Positions 39,549 to 64,000 of a stretch of DNA of 64,000 bases are shown piece after piece. The stretch's first letter is position 1. The number at the start of each line of letters is the position of its first letter. Origin of the DNA: Spongiibacter taiwanensis (GTDB lineage: Bacteria; Pseudomonadota; Gammaproteobacteria; Pseudomonadales; Spongiibacteraceae); assembly GCF_023702635.1 (NCBI RefSeq), contig NZ_CP098455.1, positions 806,001 to 870,000 of the forward strand. Reading direction: 5' to 3'. The position numbers and the translations under genes were made by a program. The notes under the pieces were generated by a model, which saw only the letters and a list, made by a program, of their open reading frames with translations, was not told where the DNA came from and searched no databases.

Positions 39549-40071
39549 TTTCGCCCCGCTGGGCGACTTACTTCTTTTTTGCGCCAAAAAAGAAGTAAGC
39601 AAGAAAAAGGGCGCCCCAATCGCTCGCCCTTCGGGTGCGTTGCGCTTCTCAAAATCCAATGGGAACGCTGCGGAACTCGCCTGCGGCTCAAACAGTCCTC
39701 GCTAAAAGACTCCCATTGAATTTCTGCGATGCTCACCGAGCTCAAAGGGGGTAATTACGCCGTACTTCGATTCAAGATCATCAGGTTTCTTAAGACCTTA
39801 AAGTTTAGCGCTTTCGGCAAGTGCTTGCCGATTTACATCCTCCCATAATCGATGCTGCGACCTCCCCCTTGTGGAGCTGCCGAGCACCGGAGTCCATCGC
39901 GGAAATAAGCAAAACACTGTTTGAGCGTAGCGAGTTTGTTTTGCGCCGCGATGGATGAGGAGCGCAGGGAACCGATGGCATCTTTTCGCCATCGGCAGCG
40001 CAGCCGGGGTGTGCTTTTCTTGCTTACTTCTTTTTCACATAAAAAGAAGTAAGTCGCCCTGCGGGGCGAAA
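39549..40071. repeat. 523-bp inverted-repeat element (MITE- or repeat-cassette-like) inside the guanidine locus
   Basis: The left end (39549-39607) and the inverted right end (40015-40071) match over about 58 nt with a few mismatches and gaps. Both begin TTTCGCCCCGC and include GGGCGACTTACTTCTTTTT. Each arm is itself a palindrome (CTTACTTCTTTTT ... AAAAAGAAGTAAG), so four half-sites exist. The interior has no transposase. Its short open frames (such as 39500-39745 and 39833-40213, minus) look like the spurious Arg/Ser-rich proteins annotated from dispersed intergenic repeats. It lies 118 bp after the UAAP2 stop and upstream of the carboxylase promoter, splitting the locus. Target-site duplication not seen. 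Confidence 0.7.
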
Positions 40072-58054: not shown

Positions 58055-58783
58055 GTGGACAACATGGACCACAATACAAAGTCGCGGCTGCTGCTCGTCG
58101 ATGACAATGACGACATTCTCCAGCTGGTGTCAGAGCTGCTGACCAAGGAGGGCTACCACTGCGCCACGGCAAAAAGTGGCGAGGAAATGTTTGCCCGCCT
58201 GTCACAATTCCAACCAGAGCTTATCCTGCTCGACGTGATGCTACCGGGCCAGGACGGCTTCGAATTGTGCCGCCAATTACGCGCAGACCCCGAAATGCCA
58301 CCGGTCATCATTCTAAGCGCCAAAGATGAGGAAATCGACCGAGTCGTGGGCCTTGAGCTGGGGGCTGACGACTACATTGTTAAACCCTTTGGTCGTCGAG
58401 AGCTGGTCGCGCGGGTAAAAACCGTGCTGCGCAGAGTTAACCAGCATTATCACCATCGCGCCCAAGGGGTTTACTGCTTTGGAGGCTGGCGCTTCAAGCC
58501 AACGCGCATGGAGCTGATCGACGCCGACTTTACGGTTATCCCCCTATCTTCTAGTGAGTGTGATCTTCTGCTCGCCTTTGTACAGAACCCGCAAATCCCG
58601 CTCTCGCGTGACCGCTTGCTCGGTCTGACCAAGGGTCGCAACAGCACCGCGTTTGACCGGAGTGTCGACTCCCATGTCAGTCGGCTGCGGCGCAAACTCC
58701 GCGACAACGCCAAACACCCGGAAATCATCAAAACGGCCTGGGGTGCAGGCTACCTGTTTACCTATGCTGTAGAAGTTGTGTGA
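58055..58783 (+). CDS. OmpR/PhoB-family response regulator
   Basis: 242 residues from GTG 58055, with AAGG upstream; an internal ATG (58064) is also possible. Receiver domain with acidic pocket LLLVDDNDD (Asp16/17), phosphoacceptor Asp60 in ILLDVMLPGQDGFE, Thr/Ser in VIILSAKDEE and Lys in DDYIVKPFGRRE (about 110). C-terminal winged helix DNA-binding domain ends with FDRSVDSHVSRLRRKLRD...IKTAWGAGYLF. Its stop overlaps the histidine kinase start (GTGA), so the two are co-translated. Confidence 0.94.
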   Translation: MDNMDHNTKSRLLLVDDNDDILQLVSELLTKEGYHCATAKSGEEMFARLSQFQPELILLDVMLPGQDGFELCRQLRADPEMPPVIILSAKDEEIDRVVGLELGADDYIVKPFGRRELVARVKTVLRRVNQHYHHRAQGVYCFGGWRFKPTRMELIDADFTVIPLSSSECDLLLAFVQNPQIPLSRDRLLGLTKGRNSTAFDRSVDSHVSRLRRKLRDNAKHPEIIKTAWGAGYLFTYAVEVV

Positions 58784-60132
58784 AACGCTTTTTTCCCGGC
58801 ACGCTGAAGGCCCAGAGTTTACTGCTTCTTGTCGCCCTGCTGATTAGCTCTCACTTGCTGACGCTGTTTATATACGAACGCCATCGGGAGGAAAGTGTAC
58901 TTCTCACCGAGGCAGCGGACCTCGCCCAACGTATCATCGGCGTTATTGAACTGGCCAACACCTTTGCTGACGATGAGCGCATTCGCATTCTGCAAACCGC
59001 GCAAACGCAGTTTCTGACCGCCTACCCCGAAGTCGTGCCCCTCGATTATGTCGCCTGCCAGAAAAGTGCGTTTGCCGATGAAATGCTTAAACACTTTAAG
59101 AAAGCCTTCTCCCAGCGCCAGTATCAAATCGACGTCTGTGCGCGAAGTGTTGCCACGCTGAAACCCTTTTTTCACACACCGTCGAACAGCAATGCCCTTG
59201 ATCTGCTGATCAATCTGCAATTTGCCGATCAGGGAAACGCATCCTTTCACGCCCTACTGCCCCATGCCACTTCACTCCTTCAAGACAGGGTTTTGCTCTA
59301 TTTAGGACTGGTAAGTCTCATCAGCCTTATTTTTGGCGGGCTGATGATTTCACGGCTTACCTCACCCATTAGAACATTGGGCAATGCGGCGACCACCATT
59401 GGACAAGACCTGAAAGCAACGCCGTTGCCCGAACACGGCCCAGAGGAGATCCGCCTCGCAGCCGCAGCATTTAATACTATGCAGCACCGGCTCCAACGCA
59501 CCTTACAAGATCAAAAGGACATGCTCGCGGCGATTTCTCACGACCTGAAATCCGGTCTGACCCGACTCCAGCTCCGGGCAGAGATGCTCAGCGATGAGGT
59601 TGAGCGGCAAGGAATGGAAGCCGTGGTCATGGATATGAAAAAGATGGTGTCATCCATCATCGACTTGGTGCGTCTGGGCAATAATACCGGCCCTCGGCAG
59701 AAGACCAACCTGAGCTACCTGCTCGACAACCTGGTCCATGCGCTGTGCGAGGAAGGTCGGCAAATTAGTGCAGAGATACAGGGCGACCTCAGCTTTCTCT
59801 GCAATGCCAGCGAACTACAACGGGCTGTGCAAAACCTGCTTGATAACGCCATCAAATACGCCGGCAGCGCAACGTTGACACTGTCAGGTAGCGGCCGGGA
59901 ACTCCGCATTTGCGTGTGCGACACCGGCCCCGGTATTCCAGCCGAGCGACTGGAAGATGTACTCAAGCCCTTTGTTACCGTCGACCCCTCCCGCAGCGCT
60001 GCCACCGGTGGCCAGGGGCTGGGCCTGGCCATCGCCAGTAATATCGCCCGCAGCCACGGCGGCAATCTGACACTGGAAAACCGCAGCAGCGGTGGCCTCT
60101 GCGCCACCCTGATCTTTCCACTGGACCAATAA
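58780..60132 (+). CDS. Sensor histidine kinase
   Basis: 450 residues from GTG 58780. Two membrane helices (about 10-30 and 172-190) bracket a periplasmic sensor with two Cys. HAMP domain SRLTSPIRTLGNAATTIGQDL (about 190-210). Dimerisation/phosphoacceptor helix with His254 in LAAISHDLKSGLTRLQLRAEM. HATPase domain with N box NLLDNAIKYA, G1 DTGPGIP, and G2 GGQGLGLAIASNIARSHGG. Cognate of the upstream response regulator. Stimulus unknown. Confidence 0.94.
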   Translation: MKRFFPGTLKAQSLLLLVALLISSHLLTLFIYERHREESVLLTEAADLAQRIIGVIELANTFADDERIRILQTAQTQFLTAYPEVVPLDYVACQKSAFADEMLKHFKKAFSQRQYQIDVCARSVATLKPFFHTPSNSNALDLLINLQFADQGNASFHALLPHATSLLQDRVLLYLGLVSLISLIFGGLMISRLTSPIRTLGNAATTIGQDLKATPLPEHGPEEIRLAAAAFNTMQHRLQRTLQDQKDMLAAISHDLKSGLTRLQLRAEMLSDEVERQGMEAVVMDMKKMVSSIIDLVRLGNNTGPRQKTNLSYLLDNLVHALCEEGRQISAEIQGDLSFLCNASELQRAVQNLLDNAIKYAGSATLTLSGSGRELRICVCDTGPGIPAERLEDVLKPFVTVDPSRSAATGGQGLGLAIASNIARSHGGNLTLENRSSGGLCATLIFPLDQ

Positions 60133-60155
60133 CGCCGCCGAGATTGACATTCGCC

Positions 60156-60197
60156 GGCCTTCAAAATACTGTATATATACACAGTATTTTGAAGGCC
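60156..60197 (+). promoter_or_regulatory. LexA (SOS) box inside a 17-bp perfect inverted repeat before imuA
   Basis: CTGTATATATACACAG at 60169-60184 matches the LexA consensus CTGT-N8-ACAG exactly. It is embedded in a longer palindrome with arms GGCCTTCAAAATACTGT (60156-60172) and its exact complement (60181-60197), 8-nt centre ATATATAC. The right arm contains GAAGG (60191-60195), the probable ribosome-binding sequence for imuA, 3 nt before ATG 60199. Confidence 0.9.
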
Positions 60198-60198
60198 A

Positions 60199-60990
60199 AT
60201 GTATTCCGTGTCCAACCACGCCCTCAACACATTGCTGGACAAGCGCCACCTCTGGCGAGGCAGGCACGTGCTACCGCCCAGCACAGAGGGCGTCAGCACG
60301 GGCTTTTCCGAACTCGACACTCACCTGCACTTGGGTGGCTGGCCAGTCGTTGGCTCAACAGAAATTCTCAGTCAGCAGCTGGGTATTGGCGAGTTGTGGC
60401 TGCTGCTGCCAGCCCTTGCCCAGCGCTCCCAGGAGGGCGCCGTGGTTTGGGTCAACCCGCCCTGCCTGCCCTCGCCCCAGGCACTGGCACAGCAGGGGCT
60501 GGCCGCCCATCGGCAGCTGCTGATTCGCCCCAGCCAGTTGTCAGAACAGCTTTGGGCTGCAGAGGAATGCCTGCGCAGCGGTGCCTGCAGCGCGGTGCTC
60601 AGCTGGTTCACAACACAAAGCCTGCCGGACAAACAATTGCGGCGCCTGCATCTGGCCGCCCAGGAGGGGCGCAGCTGGCACCTCCATTTCCGGCCCGAGC
60701 AAATCGCACAGCAGGTTTCTCCAGCCCCCCTGCGGCTGCAACTTCGCCCGGCGCCGCAGGCCCTGGATATCGAAATACTCAAACAACGCGGTGGCCCCGC
60801 CGGTCAGCGGCTAACCCTGCGCCGCCATGCTGAGCTGTATTACCAACAGCGCCCACCCGCACAGTGGCCCACCGCCCATCACCGCGCAAAGACAACCCGA
60901 GACACTCGGCGCCTGCCGCTGCTCGCACCGCTACCCTCATACCCAGTAACAATTACGCCGTCCAGTAAGAGCCAGACCGGAGCCAGCTAA
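60199..60990 (+). CDS. imuA: Translesion-synthesis accessory protein ImuA (SulA-like)
   Basis: 263 residues: VSTGFSELDTHLHLGGWPVVGSTEILSQQLGIGELWLLLPALAQRSQEGAVVWVNPP (about 32-88) is the RecA/SulA-like core. GACSAVLSWFTTQSLPDKQLRRLHLAAQEGRSWHLHFRP near 130-170 is typical of proteobacterial ImuA. The C-terminal tail is Arg/Pro-rich. Acts in SOS-induced mutagenic bypass with ImuB and DnaE2. A GTG at 60208 is an alternative start with more usual ribosome-binding spacing. The stop overlaps the imuB ATG by one base. Confidence 0.88.
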   Translation: MYSVSNHALNTLLDKRHLWRGRHVLPPSTEGVSTGFSELDTHLHLGGWPVVGSTEILSQQLGIGELWLLLPALAQRSQEGAVVWVNPPCLPSPQALAQQGLAAHRQLLIRPSQLSEQLWAAEECLRSGACSAVLSWFTTQSLPDKQLRRLHLAAQEGRSWHLHFRPEQIAQQVSPAPLRLQLRPAPQALDIEILKQRGGPAGQRLTLRRHAELYYQQRPPAQWPTAHHRAKTTRDTRRLPLLAPLPSYPVTITPSSKSQTGAS

Positions 60991-62456
60991 TGCTGTGGTT
61001 ATGCATTCGCCTGCCCCAGTTGCCACTGGCGGCTTTGCCACCGTCGCCCCCCGGCACACCGGTTGCGGTTATTGAGCAGAACCTGGTCATCCTCGCCAAC
61101 GCCGAGGCAGCGCACTATGGCGTCAGCCCCGGCCAGTCATTCCAGACTGCCCAGGGCTTGTGCGCACTGCTGGAGTGTCGCCCCCGACAGATCGCACTGG
61201 AGCAACAGATGCTGCACAACATCGCGCTGTGGGCCTATCGCTTCAGTGGCCATGTCAGCCTGAGCTCAAACCAGGCCATTGTGCTGGAGCTCAGCCGCTC
61301 CCTGCGGCTTTTTCGCGACCTGAATCGGCTTTATAGGCGTTTCATCCGGGCATTCCGCCAGCGCCAACTTCAGGTGTGGGCAGCCCTGGCAGACACCCCC
61401 CTGGCCGCCGAGCTGCTCAGTTACCAGAACCCACCGCTGAAGACCCTGGTAAATGCTCAAGGAGAGCTAAACGAAGCCGCACTCAAAGCAGCGCTGGCGC
61501 ACTTGCCGGTGCGATATCTACCTCTGCCCGAAGAGGATAAGGAACGCCTGGAAGAAATGGGGCTGCACACGCTTGGGAAGGTGTTAGCGCTGCCGAGAAC
61601 AGCCCTGGAAACCCGCTTCGGCAAGGCATTGGAAGAACTACTTGCCAAGGCGCTGGGCGAAGCGCCCGACCCAAGAGCGCATTTCCGCCCGGCAGAGCAC
61701 TTCAGCAGTCGCCGCTACTTTGATAGCGGCCTGAACAACCACCGGCAATTGCGCTTTCCCATTGCCGCCCTGCTCGGCGAACTGCAAGCCTATTTGCGCC
61801 TGCGTCAACGCGTTAATCGGGATCTGGACTGGCAGCTGGATTACCTGGACGGCAGCCGGGAGCAGTGGCGCCAGCACCTAAGCCATTCGCACTTCGATAA
61901 GCAGGCTGTTATGGCCCTGGTGATGCTGGATCTGGAGCGCCGACAGCTCAGCGGCCCAGTATGCGGAATCAGTCTACACAGTCGGCATTTTGTCTCTCCG
62001 CCAACCGCACCAAGCACGCTGTTCAGCAAGCTTCAACACGACCGGGATGCCGCCCTGCCCCAGCTGCTGGACAAATTGCAACTGCGTCTGGAGCCCGGAC
62101 AATGCGTGCAGTATCTGCCCACCGACACCTACTTGCCGGAGCAATTCCGTCATGACCATTTGCCTGACAGGTTATTGAGCAACCTGCAGTCTTCCCCGGC
62201 CGCGACACCGACAGGCAAGCTGTTGCGGCCAAACTGGCTATTAGAGCCCGCCGTGCCACTGTATGAGCGTGAAGGGGAACTGTTTTGGCGCGGCACCGTT
62301 CATCTGCTACAGGGGCCTGAACGAATCGATAGTCAGTGGTGGCAACAACGCCAGGTGCGGGATTACTACATTGCCCTTCATGAAGATGGCCGACTGTGCT
62401 GGTTATACCGCGACTGCCTGCAGCCTGCCTGGTATCTGCATGGTTTCTTTGGATAA
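60990..62456 (+). CDS. imuB: ImuB, Y-family polymerase-like protein
   Basis: 488 residues with a UmuC/DinB-like core: MLWLCIRLPQLPLAALPPS at the N-terminus, LFRDLNRLYRRFIRAFRQ near 110, ALPRTALETRFGKALEELL (thumb/HhH region, about 206-224) and a late palm/little-finger block. ImuB proteins usually lack the catalytic acidic residues, and here the first segment reads WLCIRLP without an Asp. That fits a non-catalytic scaffold that links ImuA, DnaE2 and the sliding clamp. Immediately followed by dnaE2. Confidence 0.92.
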   Translation: MLWLCIRLPQLPLAALPPSPPGTPVAVIEQNLVILANAEAAHYGVSPGQSFQTAQGLCALLECRPRQIALEQQMLHNIALWAYRFSGHVSLSSNQAIVLELSRSLRLFRDLNRLYRRFIRAFRQRQLQVWAALADTPLAAELLSYQNPPLKTLVNAQGELNEAALKAALAHLPVRYLPLPEEDKERLEEMGLHTLGKVLALPRTALETRFGKALEELLAKALGEAPDPRAHFRPAEHFSSRRYFDSGLNNHRQLRFPIAALLGELQAYLRLRQRVNRDLDWQLDYLDGSREQWRQHLSHSHFDKQAVMALVMLDLERRQLSGPVCGISLHSRHFVSPPTAPSTLFSKLQHDRDAALPQLLDKLQLRLEPGQCVQYLPTDTYLPEQFRHDHLPDRLLSNLQSSPAATPTGKLLRPNWLLEPAVPLYEREGELFWRGTVHLLQGPERIDSQWWQQRQVRDYYIALHEDGRLCWLYRDCLQPAWYLHGFFG

Positions 62457-62459
62457 GTC

Positions 62460-64000
62460 ATGTCCTACGCCGAACTGCACTGCCTGAGTAACTTCAGCTT
62501 CCTTCGGGGTGCCTCCCATCCTCAGGAGTTAGTTGCCCAGGCCGACGAACTGGGATACCAGGCCATCGCCATTACCGATGAATGCTCTTTGGCCGGTATT
62601 GTCAGGGCCTGGAACGAGGCCAAAAAACGCAACATAAAACTCATCTGTGGCGCCGAGTTTCGCCTGCAAGAAGGCTTAACCTTAGTTATTCTTGCGCCCC
62701 AGCGCCAGGCCTATGCCGAGCTTTGTCAGTTAATCAGCCAGGCCCGGCTGCGCAGCAGAAAGGGCGAATACCGCGTTGGCCTGGCAGATATCCGTCGCCA
62801 TTGCCAACAGGGGCTTCTGATCTGGCGGCCGGATTTTCGGGATGGCCTGCCCCTGAACGCGGCCCGGAAGCTGCACCAGGCATTCCCCGAGCGCCTCTGG
62901 ATCGGGTTCAGTGCCGCGGGCCAACAACAACTGGAGCCGGATTATCTCCAACACCAGCGCCTGTCCAGCCACTGCGGCCTGCCGCTATTGGCCTGCGGCA
63001 ATGTGCATATGCATGTCCGCCAACGCAAACCACTGCAGGATGTTCTTACCGCCATTCGGCTGGGGCAGCCAGTCACCGAACTGGGTACGGCCCTGCAGCA
63101 AAACAGCGAGAGTTATCTGAAACCTCTGGCACAGCTGCGCCGCTATTATCCCGAAGCGTTGTTGCAGGAGAGCTGCCGCCTGGCCCAGCGCTGTCACTTT
63201 GAACTCGACGAAATCAGCTACCAATATCCCGAGGAGGCCCTCCCCAAAGGCCGCAATGCCAGTGAGTTTTTACGGGAACTGAGCCTGGACGGTGCCCGTC
63301 GGCGCTGGCCGGAAGGTGTGCCGGATAAGGTGTTTCAGCAAATAGAGCGAGAGCTGGGCATTATCAAACAACTGGGTTACGAGCATTATTTCCTGACCGT
63401 ATACGACATTGTGCAGTTCGCCCGCAGCCAGCGCATTCTCTGCCAGGGCCGGGGCTCCGCGGCAAACTCCGCCGTCTGCTACTGCCTGCATATTACCGAA
63501 GTCGACCCATCCCAGGGACAACTCCTGTTTGAGCGCTTCATTTCACCCGAGCGGGATGAGGAGCCAGATATCGATGTGGACTTTGAGCACGAGCGCCGGG
63601 AAGAGGTCATTCAATATATCTACCGAAAATACGGCCGCGAGCGAGCCGCCCTGGCTGCCACCGTCATTACCTATCGCCGAAAAAGTGCCATCCGGGATGT
63701 CGGCAAAGCCCTGGGGCTGGATGACACGTTTCTGACCAGCCTGTCCAAAAACCTTGCCTGGTGGGATAAACGCGAGGACGTTACCCGGCACCTGCAGGAA
63801 GCCCGGCTGGATATCAGCGGCCAGCTCGCCGTCCAGTTTGCCGAGCTGGTGGAGACCTTGCTGGGCTTTCCTCGGCATCTGTCGCAACACGTTGGTGGTT
63901 TTGTGATCGCCCGGGATCCGATCGCCAGCCTGGTACCCCAGGAAAATGCGGCCATGGCAGATCGCACATTAATCCAGTGGGATAAGGAGGATCTGGAATC
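62460..64000 (+). CDS. dnaE2: Error-prone DNA polymerase DnaE2/ImuC (5' part only)
   Basis: Begins at ATG 62460 (MSYAELHCLSNFSFLRGASHPQ), 4 bp after imuB, and continues beyond the window; 513 codons are visible. The PHP domain (about 1-260) contains ELHCLSNFSFLRGASHP and DECSLAGIVRA. The polymerase palm begins around 290, with YEHYFLTVYDIVQFARSQRILCQGRGSAANSAVCYCL (about 305-341). PDIDVDFEHERREEVIQYIYRKYGRERAALAATVITYRRKSAIRDVGKALG (about 365-415) carries the catalytic Asp residues of the C-family polymerase active site. Member of the imuA-imuB-dnaE2 cassette. Confidence 0.93.
   Translation, partial: MSYAELHCLSNFSFLRGASHPQELVAQADELGYQAIAITDECSLAGIVRAWNEAKKRNIKLICGAEFRLQEGLTLVILAPQRQAYAELCQLISQARLRSRKGEYRVGLADIRRHCQQGLLIWRPDFRDGLPLNAARKLHQAFPERLWIGFSAAGQQQLEPDYLQHQRLSSHCGLPLLACGNVHMHVRQRKPLQDVLTAIRLGQPVTELGTALQQNSESYLKPLAQLRRYYPEALLQESCRLAQRCHFELDEISYQYPEEALPKGRNASEFLRELSLDGARRRWPEGVPDKVFQQIERELGIIKQLGYEHYFLTVYDIVQFARSQRILCQGRGSAANSAVCYCLHITEVDPSQGQLLFERFISPERDEEPDIDVDFEHERREEVIQYIYRKYGRERAALAATVITYRRKSAIRDVGKALGLDDTFLTSLSKNLAWWDKREDVTRHLQEARLDISGQLAVQFAELVETLLGFPRHLSQHVGGFVIARDPIASLVPQENAAMADRTLIQWDKEDLE

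Follow-up and report, generated by a model that had tools for sequence, protein, structure and literature searches.

A LexA operator inside a long, lineage-specific palindrome before imuA, with predicted masking of the imuA start in read-through RNA

Genes for SOS mutagenesis need to be silent while DNA is undamaged, and the imuA-imuB-dnaE2 cassette of Spongiibacter taiwanensis raises the question of whether the long inverted repeat around its LexA box acts not only in DNA but also in RNA that reads in from the operon upstream. The window, the whole 64,000-nucleotide stretch analysed here, belongs to a complete genome of 3.71 Mb. All of the genes concerned lie on the forward strand. imuA (60199–60990 from its ATG, or from GTG 60208 according to the homologues, as judged by N-terminal alignment) scores 199.7 bits against NF033429 ImuA, for which the cut-off is 150. 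It is followed by imuB (60990–62456, IMS domain), whose ATG overlaps the imuA stop codon (TAATG), and, 3 nt further on, by dnaE2/imuC (62460–63998), which runs off the window, carries PHP and DNA_pol3_alpha domains and has the error-prone DNA polymerase family NF004225 as the top NCBIfam match for its in-window, N-terminal half. The three genes thus stand in one operon. ImuA (60199–60987) also matches SulA models, weakly yet significantly (E ~1e-10), consistent with the known ImuA/SulA/RecA-like relationship. Upstream lie a gene for an OmpR-family response regulator (58055–58783; Response_reg and Trans_reg_C in Pfam) and, overlapping it, an open reading frame for an EnvZ/CpxA-like sensor histidine kinase (58780–60132; HAMP, HATPase_c) whose end lies 66 nt 5′ of the imuA ATG. 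In the stretch from the kinase to imuA, a terminator scan found no good candidate. Among the relatives compared, this two-component operon precedes imuA in this genome only, and tblastn with the kinase found it at this locus only, bar one weak paralogous match in L027.

The LexA box CTGTATATATACACAG (60169–60184, CTGT-N8-ACAG, no strand assigned) cannot be judged by its pattern, since CTGTN8ACAG occurs 26 times in the genome as against 25 times for a reversed control, i.e., without excess, and context is therefore needed. Judged by that context, the box before imuA is real: it is almost invariant in the imuA leaders of the genus, the genome has a lexA gene (C1:358488) whose start is preceded by the same pattern at a distance of 38 nt, and further copies stand before open reading frames that we read from their translations as dinB, recN and yebG. 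The genus-wide leaders further show a TTGACA-like −35 element (here 60144–60149, forward strand) lying 16–17 nt 5′ of TACTGT (60167–60172, forward strand; N17 in this genome), which we propose, from this spacing and its conservation, to be a −10 element that overlaps the box in its left half. TACTGT matches TATAAT at only three of six positions and is not reported by a promoter scan. In promoters of the E. coli sulA/umuDC type, a CTGT-N8-ACAG operator overlaps the −10 and a TTGAxx element stands at N16–17, and we take the arrangement at imuA to be this same layout. Conserved box and TTGACA at a fixed spacing make a LexA-controlled, sulA-type SOS promoter overlapping the box well supported by inference, and the layout places the predicted start about 7 nt past TACTGT, within the palindrome, as the preliminary description had supposed for the SOS transcripts. 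LexA binding and damage induction of the cassette are predicted. Elsewhere in the genus, LexA-like boxes lie directly upstream of related genes in two species (L081, G001:C1:602152-602181; L083, G000:C1:1028267-1028296), genes that look to us like PA0069-type radical SAM proteins, and the first of these boxes has eight consecutive extra symmetric pairs beyond CTGT. A degenerate LexA-like box (L079, G004:C1:3996132-3996161) stands 23 nt 5′ of an open reading frame that we read as an integron-type tyrosine recombinase (IntI-like).

The earlier claim that the LexA consensus is centred in a 17/17 inverted repeat is borne out. The palindrome (60156–60197) consists, on the forward strand, of a left arm GGCCTTCAAAATACTGT (60156–60172), 8 nt and a right arm ACAGTATTTTGAAGGCC (60181–60197), with all 17 arm positions paired, or 20 of 21 pairs over 42 bp if no loop is allowed for. 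Among the near-perfect inverted repeats of the whole 64-kb window it is the longest, and in a 464-kb sample of the genome it is one of three hairpins with perfect arms of at least 17 and a loop of at most 12; the two others have T/A-rich ends and outer arms and look like bidirectional terminators. Outside CTGT, 13 of 13 flank positions pair at imuA, as compared with 4.1 on average and at most 9 in 26 imuA operators of relatives and with no more than 6 at each of the 25 further CTGTN8ACAG sites of the genome. The product of position-wise pairing rates in the relatives' operators puts such pairing at ~1e-7, a null that assumes independent changes and leaves out template-switch mutation, which perfects palindromes in one step. 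The 131-nt RNA around the palindrome is predicted to fold with −44.2 kcal/mol (z = −4.8). An origin of the arm in a repeat element was rejected, as the arm sequence occurs once in the genome. Elsewhere in the window, two near-identical inverted repeats (CTTACTTCTTTTT...AAAAAGAAGTAAG) lie less than 500 bp apart at 39567–39599 and 40023–40053, and a close variant (CCTACTTCTTTTTTGGCGC...) is found elsewhere in the genome (L063:1164-1196).

What this geometry would mean for translation was assessed in silico as an opening energy, the cost of freeing positions −18 to +6 around the start codon. At ATG 60199 the predicted cost is 22.1 kcal/mol for read-through RNA, as against 4.9 kcal/mol for RNA starting inside the box; at GTG 60208 the values are 18.3 and 7.8 kcal/mol, respectively. 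The figure of 22.1 kcal/mol is an outlier relative to the read-through RNA of 20 relatives (4–16 kcal/mol) and to five further SOS genes of this genome (5–14 kcal/mol), and 500 shuffled left flanks averaged 7.4 kcal/mol and reached at most 14.5 kcal/mol. The hairpin begins 23 nt 3′ of the kinase stop codon, so that a terminating ribosome should leave it closed. Masking of the imuA start in read-through RNA is therefore likely as a physical consequence of the predicted fold, and lower translation of long imuA transcripts is predicted with it.

Which site would be masked is less clear. GAAGG (60191–60195, forward strand), named in the preliminary description as the imuA ribosome-binding site, does lie within the right arm. 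Its spacing is bad for ATG 60199 (3 nt) and long for GTG 60208 (12 nt), and it is with the in-frame GTG that the initiator methionine of the homologues aligns. ATG 60199 is thus probably not the ancestral start, and the short gap and the alignment together leave both the working start and the role of GAAGG as a Shine-Dalgarno sequence uncertain. No clear Shine-Dalgarno sequence was seen in the imuA leaders of relatives, and SOS-initiated RNA is predicted to keep GAAGG mostly, though weakly, paired with early coding sequence. The proposal that read-through RNA folds and hides the site accordingly stands as regards the strong masking predicted in read-through RNA alone and the want of a good terminator after the kinase, and is uncertain as regards the identity of the site.

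The preliminary description had also suggested looking for the long palindrome in relatives and had read the whole as insulation of a mutagenic cassette. None of the 26 comparable imuA operators of the genus (a set of 18 genomes) and order carries the palindrome beyond the LexA core. The preliminary description had itself named such a loss in close relatives as counting against its reading, although the nearest relative compared is only ~55% identical in ImuA and ImuB. The only named-species relative found, the genus-mate Spongiibacter thalassae, shows 55% identity, and in a tree of ImuA and ImuB the sister branch, L004, is long and 54.8% identical. At such distances the sequences point to a lineage-specific palindrome and do not imply an absence of selection. 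A conserved RNA element was rejected, the flanks outside the core varying among relatives. The upstream neighbours of imuA also vary between species, and in two relatives (L003 and L010) a co-directional gene ends 47–62 bp before the box, yet the extended palindrome is lacking, which leaves a link between a read-through-prone neighbour and the palindrome unsupported. With conservation failing and the two-component operon standing before imuA, among the genomes compared, in this one only, selection for insulation is unproven. We hold it doubtful that selection, once a new operon running in the same direction had arrived upstream, made the operator the tip of an RNA safety catch, with one palindrome serving both LexA repression and the silencing of read-through mRNA at the level of translation.

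We tentatively propose the following reading. A standard LexA-repressed imuA-imuB-dnaE2 promoter, with its operator over the −10 as in sulA and umuD, would in this lineage have had its operator flanks turned into a perfect 17-bp inverted repeat. RNA from the two-component operon would carry both arms and form a very stable hairpin burying the region just 5′ of the imuA start, while SOS-initiated RNA, starting near 60178–60180, would be without the left arm and far easier to translate. Because the cistrons abut, weak initiation at imuA could lower expression of the whole cassette. Such an SOS promoter within a stem, with masking of read-through RNA as its physical consequence, we consider reasonably probable. 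The observation on which the preliminary description was built is thus confirmed, and its interpretation is partly supported.

How the arms came to match is a separate matter, for which there is a serious rival. Template switching between the arms (quasipalindrome correction) may have perfected an imperfect LexA palindrome, the masking being incidental; the mechanism is documented (PMC7202029, PMC8604942). The extension is restricted to one long-branched lineage, and both arms lie in tolerant DNA, namely promoter spacer and leader. The outer left arm resembles that of a seven-species clade (TTCGC-GCCACTT as against TTCGCCGGCCTT) and the inner right arm that of L004 (TATTTGA as against TATTTTGA), so that either half could have been the template. 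Against this, the event is undated, neither arm bears a sign of having been copied at once, and the relatives are too distant for reconstruction of the ancestor. Template switching is a credible alternative origin, possibly the correct one, and it is compatible with masking, as translation would be affected as predicted whatever the origin of the arms. Lying 23 nt 3′ of the kinase stop and having a stem of about −26 kcal/mol, the hairpin could also serve as a protector of the 3′ end or a weak terminator of the two-component mRNA, blocking exonucleases or aiding Rho-dependent ending. This is less likely, and on our estimate rather unlikely: such a role would not explain why the hairpin is centred on the LexA box, the terminator scan does not list the hairpin, and an intrinsic terminator was rejected since no U-run follows it (AATGTATTCC). 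An extended protein operator, in which the outer arms contact LexA flanks or bind a second symmetric repressor, is likewise less likely and seems to us improbable. Other LexA boxes of the genus do have A/T-rich symmetric flanks, the box before the G001 radical SAM gene described above being an example, but the outer GGCCTTC recurs as an inverted pair nowhere else in the genome, nor at other SOS boxes.

Should the hairpin work as we favour, by masking read-through RNA, a repressor operator would also insulate a gene, at the level of translation, from transcription of its neighbours, and LexA boxes close to other start codons could be searched for the same rule. If it is instead a by-product, the locus would exemplify how operators, as imperfect palindromes, may drift into RNA regulatory elements. 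A search of the literature available found no paper joining a LexA box, a hairpin, a ribosome-binding site and read-through.

Individual features of the arrangement are found in several known systems. With sulA/umuDC-type promoters and other imuA-imuB-dnaE2 cassettes it shares the layout of operator and −10 and the gene order, and no long palindrome was seen in the relatives examined. In IS10/Tn10 and IS50/Tn5, a hairpin derived from inverted repeats forms in read-through RNA and blocks translation of the transposase; the likeness lies in the hairpin in read-through RNA, whereas those repeats are the ends of mobile elements without an SOS operator. A close likeness is to the lysozyme gene e of phage T4, in which long early transcripts hide the initiation region, while the 5′ strand of the stem contains the gene's own late promoters, whose RNA lacks that strand and is translated (PMC3014915, which cites McPheeters et al. 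1986). There the effect was shown experimentally, at about 100-fold, and the structure is conserved in related phages (PMC3014915). At imuA, too, the promoter would lie inside the stem and the start region is predicted, in silico, to be paired in the long RNA and freed in the promoter-proximal one; unlike that of gene e, the imuA structure is absent from the relatives compared, members of genus and order of which the nearest is ~55% identical. Where T4 relies on late promoters and phage timing, imuA would rely on LexA. The control logic would therefore be one already known from gene e, and its joining to a LexA operator would represent a single-lineage case.
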